Of a stretch of DNA of 64,000 nucleotides, positions 36,507 through 40,979 are shown piece after piece (the first letter of the stretch is position 1; each line of letters begins with the position of its first letter). The position numbers and the translations under genes are program-made. Under the pieces are notes generated by a model. It did no database searches. It saw only the letters and a program-made list of their open reading frames with translations, and was not told the DNA's origin. Source of the DNA: an uncultured Oscillospiraceae bacterium. Lineage in GTDB: Bacteria; Bacillota; Clostridia; Oscillospirales; Oscillospiraceae. Location of the stretch: contig CANQHN010000010.1 of the NCBI GenBank assembly GCA_947623745.1, positions 17,576 through 81,575 of the forward strand, written 5' to 3'.

Positions 36507-36533
36507 AAAAACGGGGCAAAATGCCCCGTTTTT
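36507..36533 (+). terminator. Terminator after the Cof phosphatase gene
   Basis: A perfect 11-bp stem aaaaacggggc...gccccgttttt immediately at the stop codon. Confidence 0.88.
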
Positions 36534-36547
36534 CTTGCGATTTCCCC

Positions 36548-36578
36548 TTGACTTTCCCCCTGGGGGAGGGTTTATCAT
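36548..36578 (+). promoter_or_regulatory. MerR-type promoter with 19-bp spacer and central dyad (no MerR gene nearby)
   Basis: TTGACT and TATCAT are separated by 19 nt. The spacer is filled by the near-perfect dyad ACTTTCCCCCTGGGGGAGGGT, the hallmark of promoters twisted open by MerR-family activators (compare CueR and ZntR sites). No open reading frame with a ribosome site follows within 150 nt. The rest of the gap to tetR (36579-36694) holds nothing else recognised. Confidence 0.65.
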
Positions 36579-36694
36579 GACCTGCGCTGGGCAAACTGTA
36601 TCGAAATTCGCCCCGCCGCCTGGACCGCGGGAAGGGCCGCCGGGCGGATTTGGAAAAGAAATGTAAACAAATTTTGAAATCCATGCTTTCCCGC

Positions 36695-36723
36695 TTGACA
36701 GTACAGTTAGCCCCGGCTATACT
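36695..36723 (+). promoter_or_regulatory. Promoter of the tetR-export operon
   Basis: A perfect TTGACA, 17 nt, TATACT. Confidence 0.85.
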
Positions 36724-36727
36724 CGAC

Positions 36728-36742
36728 ATGACAACTTGTCAT
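36728..36742 (+). promoter_or_regulatory. TetR operator
   Basis: A perfect 15-nt palindrome ATGACAA-C-TTGTCAT begins right after the -10 box and covers the transcription start, before a TetR gene. Binding here would block the operon. Confidence 0.78.
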
Positions 36743-36764
36743 ATTCCCGGAGAGGAGGGGGACC

Positions 36765-37370
36765 GTGCCAAGCGATACATTTTTCCGGCTGCCGGAGGAG
36801 AAGCGCCGGCGGCTGCTGGCCGCCGCCCAGGCGGAATTTGCCCGGGTGCCCTATGACGAGACCTCCATCAACCGGATCATCCGGGAGGCCGGCATCCCCC
36901 GGGGCAGCTTCTATATGTACTTCCAGGACAAGGAGGATCTGTTCCGCTACCTGCTCAGGGACTACACCGGCTGGATCGGCCAGCAGCTGCTGGAGCTGCT
37001 GCGGCGGGAGGAGGGCGACCTGTTCGCCGCCTTCCGCGGCCTGTTCGACCGGCTCACCGGCCTGGCCGCCGGCTCGGAGGGGGAGCGGATGCGGCAGATC
37101 GCCCAGGTGCTTTGGCGCAACGCCGGGGCCCAGCAGGGGGCGCTGCTGCGCTCCATCAGCCCGCCGGCCCTGGCGGACCCCATTTTGAGCGAGATCGACG
37201 CCAGCCGCCTGTCCCTGGAGCGGGAGGAGGACCTGGAGGAGATCGTACATATCCTCTTCAGCGTGACCATCCCCACCCTGTGCGCCGCGGAGCAGGAGCC
37301 GGCGGCGCTGGTGCGGGAGCACTATCTGGCCCGGCTGGACATCCTCAGCCGGGGTATGGCGGCGCGGTGA
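36765..37370 (+). CDS. TetR/AcrR-family transcriptional repressor
   Basis: A 201-aa one-component regulator. The N-terminal helix-turn-helix is clear (EKRRRLLAAAQAEFARVPYDETSINRIIREAGIPRGSFYMYFQDKEDLF). The C-terminal ligand domain is variable. The start is GTG 36765 after GAGGAGGGGG. A palindrome over its promoter start (36728-36742) indicates autorepression. It is the first gene of an operon with a membrane fusion protein, an ABC ATPase and a permease, so its ligand is probably the exported compound or an envelope stress signal. Confidence 0.92.
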   Translation: MPSDTFFRLPEEKRRRLLAAAQAEFARVPYDETSINRIIREAGIPRGSFYMYFQDKEDLFRYLLRDYTGWIGQQLLELLRREEGDLFAAFRGLFDRLTGLAAGSEGERMRQIAQVLWRNAGAQQGALLRSISPPALADPILSEIDASRLSLEREEDLEEIVHILFSVTIPTLCAAEQEPAALVREHYLARLDILSRGMAAR

Positions 37371-37403: not shown

Positions 37404-39035
37404 ATGGAAACTGCACAGCTGACCAACCAGACCCCGGCCCCCCAGGCGGAGGCCCCCGTCCTGGAGGCGCCCAAGAAGAAGCGCCGCTGGCCCAAGTGGG
37501 TGCTGGTGGGCGTGATCGTCCTGGCGGTCCTGTTTTTCACGGTGATCCGCCCCATGATGGGCGCGGGCCAGAGCCTGATCGCCTCCACCTATCTGAGCCA
37601 GCAGGCCCAGATCCGGGATGTGACCGTGTCGGTGAGCAGCACCGGCACCGTGACCCCCATCGACTCCTACACCGTCAACGCCCTGGTCACCGGCGAGGTG
37701 CTGGACGCCCCCTTTGAGGAGGGCGACCGGGTGGAGAAGGGGGCCCTCCTGTACCAGATCGAGGCCGACGACGCCGAGATCGCCGTGGAGCAGGCCCGGC
37801 TCTCCGTCCGGCAGGCCCAGCTCTCCCAGCAGACAGCCAGCGAGAGCCTGAACCCCGCCGCCAACGGCGCGGGGGTGGTACAGAACCTGTACGTGAAGCG
37901 GGGGGACACGGTGAGCGCCGGCACCCCCATCGCCGACATCGCCGACAACTCCACCATGACCGTGGACGTCACCTTCCACAGCATGGACGCGGCGGCCCTG
38001 TCCGTGGGCCAGCAGGCCACGGTGACCATCGACGGCACCCTGGAGACCCTGACGGGTACCATCGAGTCCATCTCCGCCGCCGACCAGGTGGGCCCGGGCG
38101 GCACCCTGCTGCGGCAGGTGAAGGTGCGGGTGACCAACCCCGGCGCCCTCACCGCCGGCACCAGCGCCACCGTCAGCGTGGGGGACATCGACTGCGCCGG
38201 GGGCGGTACCTTCGCGGCTAACCTGAACCAGACCGTGGTGGCCATGACCAGCGGAGAGATCACGGCCCTGAACGTCTCGGTGGGCTCCCCGGTGAAGGAC
38301 GGCACAGTGCTGGCCACCATCGGCGGCACCAGCGCCAGCAGCACCCTGGAGAACGCCTCCATCTCCCTGGAGAACGCCCAGCTGGCCCTCCGGCGGGCGG
38401 AGGATGCCATGGAGAACTACACCATCACCGCGCCCATCTCCGGCACCGTCATTGAGAAGAACTTCAAGGCCGGCGACACCATCGAGAACGCCTCCCTCAC
38501 CGCCGCCGGCGGCCGCCTGGCCCTGATCTACGACATGACCACCCTCACCTTTGAGATGCGCATCGACGAGCTGGACATCAACAAGATCCAGGAGGGGCAG
38601 GAGGTGTCCATCACCTCCGACGCTGTGGAGGGGGCCACCTTCTCCGGCGTGGTGGACAAGATCAGCATCAACGGCACCACCGTCAGCGGCCGGACCACCT
38701 ACCCCATCACCGTGAACATCCTGGACCCCGGCGACCTGAAGCCCGGCATGAACGTGTCCGCCGACGTGATCGTGGAGCGGGTGGGCCAGGTGCTCACCGT
38801 CCCCGTGGAGGCGGTGAACCGGGGCAGCGAGAAGCCCTACGTCCTGGTGGCCGGCGAGGGTGCTCTGGACAAGGACGGCAATCTGTCCGACCCCAACCGC
38901 CTGGAGCGCCGGGAGGTTACCCTGGGCCGCAACGACGACAGCTTTATCGAGATCGTGGACGGCCTGTCCGAGGGGGAGCAGGTGTTCTGGCTCAACGAGG
39001 TCACCAACCCCCTCGCCGCCATGATGGGGATGTGA
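37404..39035 (+). CDS. Membrane fusion protein (HlyD/RND periplasmic-adaptor-like) of an ABC exporter
   Basis: A 543-aa protein with an N-terminal cytoplasmic tail, one membrane helix (about 31-52, WVLVGVIVLAVLFFTVI) and a large extracellular part. Two biotinyl-lipoyl-like halves are visible, VNALVTGEVLDAPFEEGDRVEKGALLYQIE and ITAPISGTVIEKNFKAGDTI. Coiled-coil segments of alternating EQAR/QLSQQ and a C-terminal beta barrel (VPVEAVNRGSEKPYVLV) are also present. It partners with the MacB-like permease and ATPase encoded next. The adaptor is long for a Gram-positive family member because the lipoyl/hairpin part looks duplicated. Confidence 0.9.
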   Translation: METAQLTNQTPAPQAEAPVLEAPKKKRRWPKWVLVGVIVLAVLFFTVIRPMMGAGQSLIASTYLSQQAQIRDVTVSVSSTGTVTPIDSYTVNALVTGEVLDAPFEEGDRVEKGALLYQIEADDAEIAVEQARLSVRQAQLSQQTASESLNPAANGAGVVQNLYVKRGDTVSAGTPIADIADNSTMTVDVTFHSMDAAALSVGQQATVTIDGTLETLTGTIESISAADQVGPGGTLLRQVKVRVTNPGALTAGTSATVSVGDIDCAGGGTFAANLNQTVVAMTSGEITALNVSVGSPVKDGTVLATIGGTSASSTLENASISLENAQLALRRAEDAMENYTITAPISGTVIEKNFKAGDTIENASLTAAGGRLALIYDMTTLTFEMRIDELDINKIQEGQEVSITSDAVEGATFSGVVDKISINGTTVSGRTTYPITVNILDPGDLKPGMNVSADVIVERVGQVLTVPVEAVNRGSEKPYVLVAGEGALDKDGNLSDPNRLERREVTLGRNDDSFIEIVDGLSEGEQVFWLNEVTNPLAAMMGM

Positions 39036-39039
39036 GCCC

Positions 39040-39783
39040 ATGGGACACCTGATCGAATTCAGACAGGTATACAAGATATACCAGATGGGGGACACCGCCG
39101 TCCACGCCCTGGACGGGGTGGACATCACCATCGACAAGGGGGAGTTCGTGGCCATCGTGGGCCAGTCGGGCTCCGGCAAGTCCACCGCCATGAACATCAT
39201 CGGCTGCCTGGACGTGCCCACCCGGGGGCAGTACTTCCTGGGGGGCACCGACGTGTCCACCATGGACGACGACCAGCAGGCGGTCATCCGCAACAAGATG
39301 CTGGGGTTCATCTTCCAGCAGTACAACCTGATTCCCAAGCTCAACGTGCTGGAGAACGTGGAGCTGCCCCTGCTCTACGCCGGCGTGCCGGAGCGGGAGC
39401 GCCGGGAGCGGGCGCGCTCCGCGCTGGAGCGGGTGGGCCTGGCGGACAAGAGCAAAAATCTGCCCAGCCAGCTCTCCGGCGGCCAGCAGCAGCGGGTGTC
39501 CATCGCCCGGGCCCTGGCCGGCAGCCCCTCGGTCATCCTGGCCGACGAGCCCACCGGCGCCCTGGACTCCCGCACCGGCCGGGAGGTGCTCCACTTCCTC
39601 AAGCAGCTCAACCGGGAGGGGGACACGGTGGTGCTCATCACCCACGACAACTCCATCGCCGTCATGGCCGACCGGATCATCCGCCTCCAGGACGGGAAGG
39701 TCATCTACGACGGGGACGCCCACGACCCCCGGGCCGTGGTCCAGCCCCACCTGCCCGGCGAGGATGAGGAGGTGGGGGCCTGA
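39040..39783 (+). CDS. ABC transporter ATP-binding protein, MacB/LolD type
   Basis: A 247-aa ATPase with Walker [11 protein letters not shown]-loop [24 protein letters not shown], signature [15 protein letters not shown], Walker [13 protein letters not shown] and switch His THD. The PLLYAGV and NL-PKL-NV pattern is that of the MacB/LolD (FtsE-like) group, which powers mechanotransmission rather than classic transport. The ATG at 39040 starts 4 nt after the adaptor stop. It ends in a TGATG overlap with the permease gene. Confidence 0.95.
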
Positions 39784-40979
39784 TGGGCATCAAGCAGTCC
39801 TTCCTGCTGGCGCTGAAATCCCTGGCGGTGAGCAAGGTGCGGGCCCTGCTGACCATGCTGGGCATCATCATCGGCGTGGCCGCCGTCATCGTCATCATCT
39901 CCCTGGGCGACGGGATGCAGAAGATGATGAACGACCAGTTCGAGTCCCTGGGCGCCAACCTGATCCAGGTGTCGGTGTGGGGCTCCGGCTCCTCCCGCAG
40001 CGTGGCCCCGGAGGACATGTACAAGCTGGTGGCCGACAACCCGGACTACCTGCGGGCGGTGAGCCCCTACGTGCAGGTCAGCGGCGTGTCGGTGCGCTCC
40101 ACCCGGGAGGCCTTCACCCCCGGCTCCATCCTGGGAGTCAGCGAGGACTACGACTCCATCCGGGGCATGACTCTGAGCCAGGGCCGCTTTTTACAGTATG
40201 TGGACGTGCTGCGCCAGCAGAAGGTGTGCGTGGTGGGGTCCTACGTGAACAAAGAGTACTTTGACGGCCAGGCCGTGGGCCAGCAGCTCAGCATCGGCGG
40301 CTACACCTATATAGTGGTGGGGGTGCTCTCCGAATCCGCCGAGTCCCGGAAGGGCACCGATGACGACCAGATTGTCCTGCCCTACACCAACGCCATGTCC
40401 CTGGCCGGCAGCCGGGTGTCCGCCTATATGTTCACCGGCGCGGACAAGGACACCGCCAGCGTCTCCCGCACCATCATTGAGAAACGGCTGGAGAAGATAT
40501 TCGGGGACGACGACTACTTCATGGTCATCACCTCCGCGGAGATGCTGGACATCATGAACACCATGATGAACACCATGATGGTGGTGCTGGTGGCCATCGC
40601 CGCCATCTCCCTGCTGGTGGGCGGCATCGGAATCATGAACATCATGCTGGTCTCGGTGTCCGAGCGCACCCGGGAGATCGGCATCCGAAAGTCCCTGGGG
40701 GCCAAGCGGCGGGACATCCGCTCCCAGTTCATCATCGAGGCGGGCACCACCTCCGCCATCGGCGGGGTCATCGGCATCGGCTTCGGCCTGCTGGCGGCAA
40801 ATGTGGCCGGGACGCTCATCTCCGGCCTGGACGGGGCGGAGGGCTTTGCCGCCGTGCCCTCCCTGGGGGCCATCGCCCTGGCCTTCGGCGTGTCGGTGGG
40901 GGTGGGGGTGCTGTTCGGCTACCTCCCCGCCAACAAGGCCGCAAAGCTCAACCCCATCGACGCGCTGCGCTATGATTGA
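39783..40979 (+). CDS. MacB-type ABC transporter permease
   Basis: A 398-aa permease with four membrane helices: one at the N terminus (ALLTMLGIIIGVAAVIVIISLGDG), a large extracytoplasmic MacB-PCD domain (about 45-270), then three C-terminal helices (FtsX domain, including GGIGIMNIMLVSVSERTREIGIRKSLGAKRRDI). Together with the adaptor and ATPase it forms a tripartite-like exporter for peptides, antibiotics or lipids. Start overlaps the ATPase stop by one base. Last transport gene in the operon. Confidence 0.94.
   Translation: MGIKQSFLLALKSLAVSKVRALLTMLGIIIGVAAVIVIISLGDGMQKMMNDQFESLGANLIQVSVWGSGSSRSVAPEDMYKLVADNPDYLRAVSPYVQVSGVSVRSTREAFTPGSILGVSEDYDSIRGMTLSQGRFLQYVDVLRQQKVCVVGSYVNKEYFDGQAVGQQLSIGGYTYIVVGVLSESAESRKGTDDDQIVLPYTNAMSLAGSRVSAYMFTGADKDTASVSRTIIEKRLEKIFGDDDYFMVITSAEMLDIMNTMMNTMMVVLVAIAAISLLVGGIGIMNIMLVSVSERTREIGIRKSLGAKRRDIRSQFIIEAGTTSAIGGVIGIGFGLLAANVAGTLISGLDGAEGFAAVPSLGAIALAFGVSVGVGVLFGYLPANKAAKLNPIDALRYD

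Follow-up and report, generated by a model that had tools for sequence, protein, structure and literature searches.

A conserved MerR-type promoter upstream of a MacB-type export operon in an uncultured Oscillospiraceae bacterium, and a likely cognate regulator with a predicted membrane hairpin

The well-studied sensors of the MerR family are soluble proteins, and in CueR the cysteines that bind metal sit in the C-terminal region. MerR proteins act on promoters whose spacers are 19-20 bp long, activating them through spacer distortion (PMC9909328; PMC8113463), and efflux pumps are often driven by such activators (PMC8113463; PMC9909328). BmrR and EcmrR, for example, are multidrug regulators that act at 19-bp spacers in drug-induced efflux (PMC7722741, PMC8113463). 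On the transport side, YknWXYZ of Bacillus exports the SDP toxin (PMC4887032).

The locus described here lies in a window of 64,000 nt, the whole stretch of DNA that was analysed, and consists of a promoter region followed by a tetR-hlyD-ABC-macB operon that encodes the three parts of a MacB-type exporter: a MacB_PCD-FtsX permease, an ABC ATPase and an HlyD adaptor (Table 1). The original prediction had placed a CueR/ZntR-like promoter of the MerR family upstream of this operon, TTGACT-19-TATCAT around a near-perfect central dyad, and had considered it to have neither a MerR gene nor an obvious target. The promoter is borne out, and the export operon, of a drug/peptide type, is very probably its target.

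Table 1. Features of the promoter region and export operon in the window, and the regulator gene elsewhere in the genome
Feature	Position	Strand	Basis or remark
Terminator-like (intrinsic) hairpin of the upstream HAD gene, AAAAACGGGGCAAAATGCCCCGTTTTT	36507..36533	+	sequence; between HAD gene and P1
P1 -35 element, TTGACT	36548..36553	+	sequence; TTGAC also in the best-scoring weight-matrix exporter sites
P1 dyad, TCCCCCTGGGGGA, predicted binding site of C44 MerR	36555..36567	+	within the 19-nt spacer 36554-36572
P1 -10 element, TATCAT	36573..36578	+	sequence; TAnnnT in relatives
P1 leader, apparently non-coding, not conserved, without terminator	36579..36694	+	116 nt between P1 and P2
P2, second promoter, sigma-A type, TTGACA-17-TATACT	36695..36723	+	scan; kept in 5 TetR-bearing operons
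Palindrome ATGACAACTTGTCAT, probable TetR operator	36728..36742	+	sequence; immediately 3' of the P2 -10
tetR (TetR_N + TetR_C_19), first gene of the operon	36765..37370	+	
hlyD-type membrane fusion protein	37404..39035	+	
ABC ATPase, MacB/LolD type	39040..39783	+	
MacB_PCD-FtsX permease	39783..40979	+	
C44 merR	G000:C44:2870-2223	minus	

The stretch 36548-36578 (P1) is a real and conserved MerR-type promoter. Its spacer length and central inverted repeat are those of MerR-regulated promoters, and the dyad, read directly from the sequence, is centred in the spacer and perfect over 13 bp. A degenerate form of the P1 pattern, with 2 mismatches allowed, matches once in the 64-kb window and never in 100 dinucleotide shuffles. 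P1 is absent from the output of the usual promoter scan, which covers 16-18-nt spacers and reports P2, a promoter of ordinary type that the original prediction had overlooked, and P1 is less canonical than most sites of its kind, reading GAGGGTTTA rather than the usual GAAGGTGTA. Its transcript would be expected to start near 36585. As had been noted from the outset, the first 150 nt beyond the promoter hold no gene; tetR comes next, and nothing both conserved and coding lies between.

Searches of the bacterium's own genome (3.05 Mb, 97.9% complete), by pattern and by family, recover two MerR-family genes, on contigs C44 and C15, and none in the 64-kb window; the statement that there is no MerR gene therefore holds for the window and fails for the genome. 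A 27-nt motif, searched across the whole genome with 3 mismatches allowed, occurs in four places (reversed control, 0): at P1, twice on C44 and once on C4. One of the C44 sites lies 58 bp upstream of merR and carries the same dyad as P1, and the other lies 61 bp upstream of yhfC, the gene preceding merR; a regulator with a site matching P1 is thus encoded in the same genome. The C15 MerR, whose upstream region contains a different dyad, GGCCGATATCGGCC, was for that reason set aside as the regulator of P1. The C4 site (before C4:91852; L038:3353-4768) has the consensus -10 TATAAT and precedes the gene of a secreted protein with a copper-amine-oxidase-N domain, so the regulon may extend beyond export.

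Homologues of C44 MerR in the named relatives have the site shortly upstream of merR in 77 of 80 cases, and in the other three it lies 859-1231 bp upstream of merR, in front of yhfC. Because the dyad precedes merR both on C44 and in these 77 homologues, the sequences point to C44 MerR as the likely cognate regulator of P1. Circularity was avoided by training a weight matrix solely on merR promoters from other genomes; this matrix scores the window site at 40.7 bits, within the training range of 39.9-52.6, and the next best position in the window at -2.3. Sites above 25 bits precede 21 of 30 export operons, comprising 5/5 that carry tetR and 16/25 that do not, and one further operon scores 22.4. 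The nearest relatives of the window tetR (46-61% identity) all have the site, 200-306 bp upstream of tetR. Most other relatives lack tetR and have it directly upstream of hlyD; the HlyD-ABC-FtsX operon is the same one, and the same HAD gene often precedes the site. The dyad is conserved, whereas a lack of conservation had been named as grounds for giving up the original prediction.

A strict 31-nt pattern finds 90 sites in 61 members of the genus and none when reversed; 81 of these lie upstream of merR, yhfC-merR or the exporter; of the other nine, some fall at contig ends or in front of a broken-off exporter (G001 among them). MerR and the site occur together in 47 of the 61 genomes, with MerR only in 2, the site only in 2 and neither in 10 (Fisher p=4.5e-8, a value that overstates significance because the genomes, all from one genus, are related to each other). 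The corresponding counts for exporters, five of which owe their site to the matrix or to looser patterns rather than the strict one, are 35 with both, 6 with MerR only, 1 with the site only and 4 with neither (p=0.006, overstated for the same reason). The six MerR-bearing genomes that have the exporter without the site indicate that the link is not universal. The conservation of the site before the exporter and its co-occurrence with MerR nevertheless argue that P1 gives the export operon a second input, which, among the three roles originally proposed for the promoter, is the supported one.

The site also precedes an exporter in another genus of the family (L267). Homologues of C44 MerR are present in 51 of 201 genomes of a family sample, some matching through the N-terminal half only, and among 300 genomes sampled from the phylum there is none at E<=1e-25 except in the bacterium's own genome. 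Two further observations concern this wider distribution. At L290 (G404:C54:2708-2738), in another genus, the pattern occurs about 61 bp upstream of an ABC ATPase gene, and longer frames of about 470-530 aa at G011:C1:2673137-2673730 and similar loci in the family match mainly the N-terminal half of the MerR profile, perhaps representing another class whose C-terminal part is larger.

Between P1 and tetR, the five TetR-bearing operons share three conserved blocks: P1, the P2 pair TTGAC..-17-TATACT, and TGACAACTTGTCA, from which only G054 differs, at one position. The remainder of the leader has largely diverged, and transcripts from P1 therefore most likely run past both P2 and the TetR operator and on into tetR. 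In 20 of the 25 TetR-less leaders a different element, made up of TTTAATGAAAATTTTAA, then CTTTTCTTT and TACAAT as a -10-like hexamer, is conserved close to hlyD, and four of these leaders retain it without the MerR site. Since the MerR site is found with and without tetR and the proximal elements differ, the distal MerR promoter appears to be shared and the proximal promoter exchanged. The TetR-less element (L182-L202), located 90-290 bp upstream of hlyD, resembles a response-regulator box with its -10. Additionally, distant TetR paralogues (L007, L009, L011, L018, L020) show a direct repeat like TTAACA-N5-TTCACA directly upstream of the tetR -35, and the equivalent in the window is TGTAAACAAATTTTGAAAT, in the same position (about 36662-36680).

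C44 MerR begins with a MerR winged helix-turn-helix (MerR_1, PF13411, 4.8e-21). Its best sequence relative in the PDB is CueR (E about 5e-14), through a match that ends at residue 99, and its score falls below every equivalog cut-off among its matches. The structural model (mean pLDDT 76.5) has a CueR/CadR/MtaN-type fold, with a CueR fold match at TMt 0.66. Two hydrophobic segments follow, at about 138-165 and 176-200, and two such segments are present in 21/21 homologues; the model places helices at 144-170 and 176-214, with pLDDT of about 54-73. In our reading, the CueR-like DNA-binding half is followed by a long dimer helix, and a membrane hairpin of two helices forms the C-terminus. The protein would then be a one-component regulator held in the membrane, which is a prediction and not a localisation. 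Within the literature covered, searches returned nothing relevant on membrane-bound MerR proteins or on MerR with YhfC or YbjQ, and two reviews searched by term do not mention a membrane-held MerR (PMC10269533, PMC9909328).

Further, the predicted hairpin recurs outside the regulator. Small two-helix membrane proteins encoded downstream of merR share its C-terminal hairpin and the tail motif QR..EI..GE.D.A..Y (L037:1497-2239, L093-L172), the tails reading ...QRIGEIQKGEEDDAKRF in MerR and ...QRWREVRGGEEDEARKY and ...RRFDEIEGGELDAAGKY in the small proteins. In profile comparison the first small protein aligns with the MerR hairpin over 77 columns (E=1.8e-23), and the second aligns only in the last helix and the tail (E=5.5e-17). 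By the motif, 50 of 81 loci encode two such proteins, 12 encode three and nine encode one; none was found by motif in the other 10. The YbjQ gene comes after them, and spacing and order suggest that merR, the hairpin genes and YbjQ form one transcript.

One alternative is a metal-responsive promoter of CueR/ZntR type, with the exporter induced by copper or zinc stress. The arms of P1 resemble CueR-type sites, the DNA-binding half of C44 MerR is closest to CueR, and Pfam labels YbjQ 'putative heavy-metal-binding'. The rest of the regulator, however, does not follow. It reaches 53.2 bits where the CueR model (TIGR02044) demands 147.4, and the similarity to CueR stops ahead of the C-terminal region; Cys98 is the sole cysteine in all 21 aligned homologues, where the two C-terminal metal-binding cysteines of metal-sensing MerR proteins were not found; and C44 MerR has no metal-binding loop. 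Nor is there a metal ATPase or chaperone among the regulon genes seen. The family assignment and the CueR-like arms of the original prediction stand. Because a regulator without a metal loop, with a membrane hairpin and in an operon with hairpin copies and YbjQ is unlikely to sense metal, we consider this explanation improbable.

It is more improbable again that P1 is a decaying remnant of a lost metal or drug operon, as had also been proposed for a metal operon. Its slight departure from consensus, and the loss or original absence of the site in some relatives, would fit decay, but place, spacing and dyad are kept in 5/5 TetR-bearing operons whose leaders have otherwise diverged, and the genome retains an intact cognate MerR without the metal loop of CueR. 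A small regulatory RNA that terminates ahead of tetR, the other role suggested for P1, has the apparently non-coding leader in its favour and is a shade less credible than a remnant: the P1-tetR interval has no terminator, the leader differs even among the nearest TetR-bearing relatives, Rfam matches all lie under the gathering score and mostly on the HAD terminator, and TetR-less relatives have the same promoter in front of hlyD. That another factor binds the dyad, or that the dyad simply forms a terminator-like hairpin for the HAD gene, as its flagging by the scan could imply, is scarcely credible; the HAD gene has its own hairpin, a better one that carries a T run, and before merR and yhfC, genes that do not follow a HAD gene, the dyad is conserved along with the -35 and the 19-nt spacing.

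We therefore favour, with a probability of roughly 85%, P1 as the distal MerR-activated promoter of the tetR-hlyD-ABC-macB operon, on which C44 MerR acts in trans and which a membrane signal switches through spacer distortion. C44 MerR would occupy the dyad within the overlong 19-bp spacer; by analogy with the MerR family, a signal sensed within or at the membrane would cause it to untwist the spacer, so that sigma-A RNA polymerase could use TTGACT/TATCAT and raise the exporter. The similar sites on C44 would raise MerR itself, the small free hairpin copies, YbjQ and the YhfC protease as well, and P2 with the TetR operator would provide a second, independent input. The likeliest signals are membrane-active or lipophilic compounds or envelope-active peptides, given the membrane hairpin, the lack of a metal loop and an exporter of MacB/YknYZ type (PMC4887032) as the output. 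For the free hairpins we can only guess at titration or feedback. A broader proposal seems to us evenly balanced between right and wrong: that these regulators form a distinct MerR class, so far mainly in Oscillospiraceae, that senses membrane state through the hairpin, with free operon-encoded copies forming mixed complexes with the regulator and setting or resetting its sensitivity, and with the window promoter as the export output.

On this reading, what had seemed an orphan promoter serves as an output for a defined regulon, which is found in common gut bacteria (Pseudoflavonifractor, Lawsonibacter, Flintibacter and relatives) and links a MacB-type exporter to a predicted membrane-held MerR. 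If a membrane hairpin is indeed the sensing part, with free copies encoded next door, it would be a new switch for the spacer-distortion mechanism, and P1 offers a ready promoter for seeking the signal. The regulatory link is conserved and belongs to a known type; what is unusual is its regulator, of which we found no description.

Compared with E. coli CueR at the copA and cueO promoters, C44 MerR has a similar DNA-binding half and a similar inverted repeat in a 19-bp spacer; it differs in having two predicted membrane helices in place of the C-terminal metal loop, in a predicted target that is a MacB-type exporter rather than a copper pump, and in a regulator gene that is not beside the target. 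The efflux target and 19-bp spacer are shared with BmrR and EcmrR (PMC7722741, PMC8113463), and the same distortion mechanism would be expected, but their C-terminal domain is soluble and senses drugs, whereas that of C44 MerR is a predicted membrane hairpin. In being held in the membrane, as predicted, C44 MerR resembles one-component regulators such as CadC and ToxR (PMC10269533, PMC5430869), which use other DNA-binding domains. The exporter, finally, has the HlyD-type adaptor, separate ABC ATPase and MacB-type permease of MacAB and of the Gram-positive YknWXYZ of Bacillus (PMC4887032), a likeness drawn from these three components; unlike those systems, it stands under predicted dual regulation by MerR and TetR.
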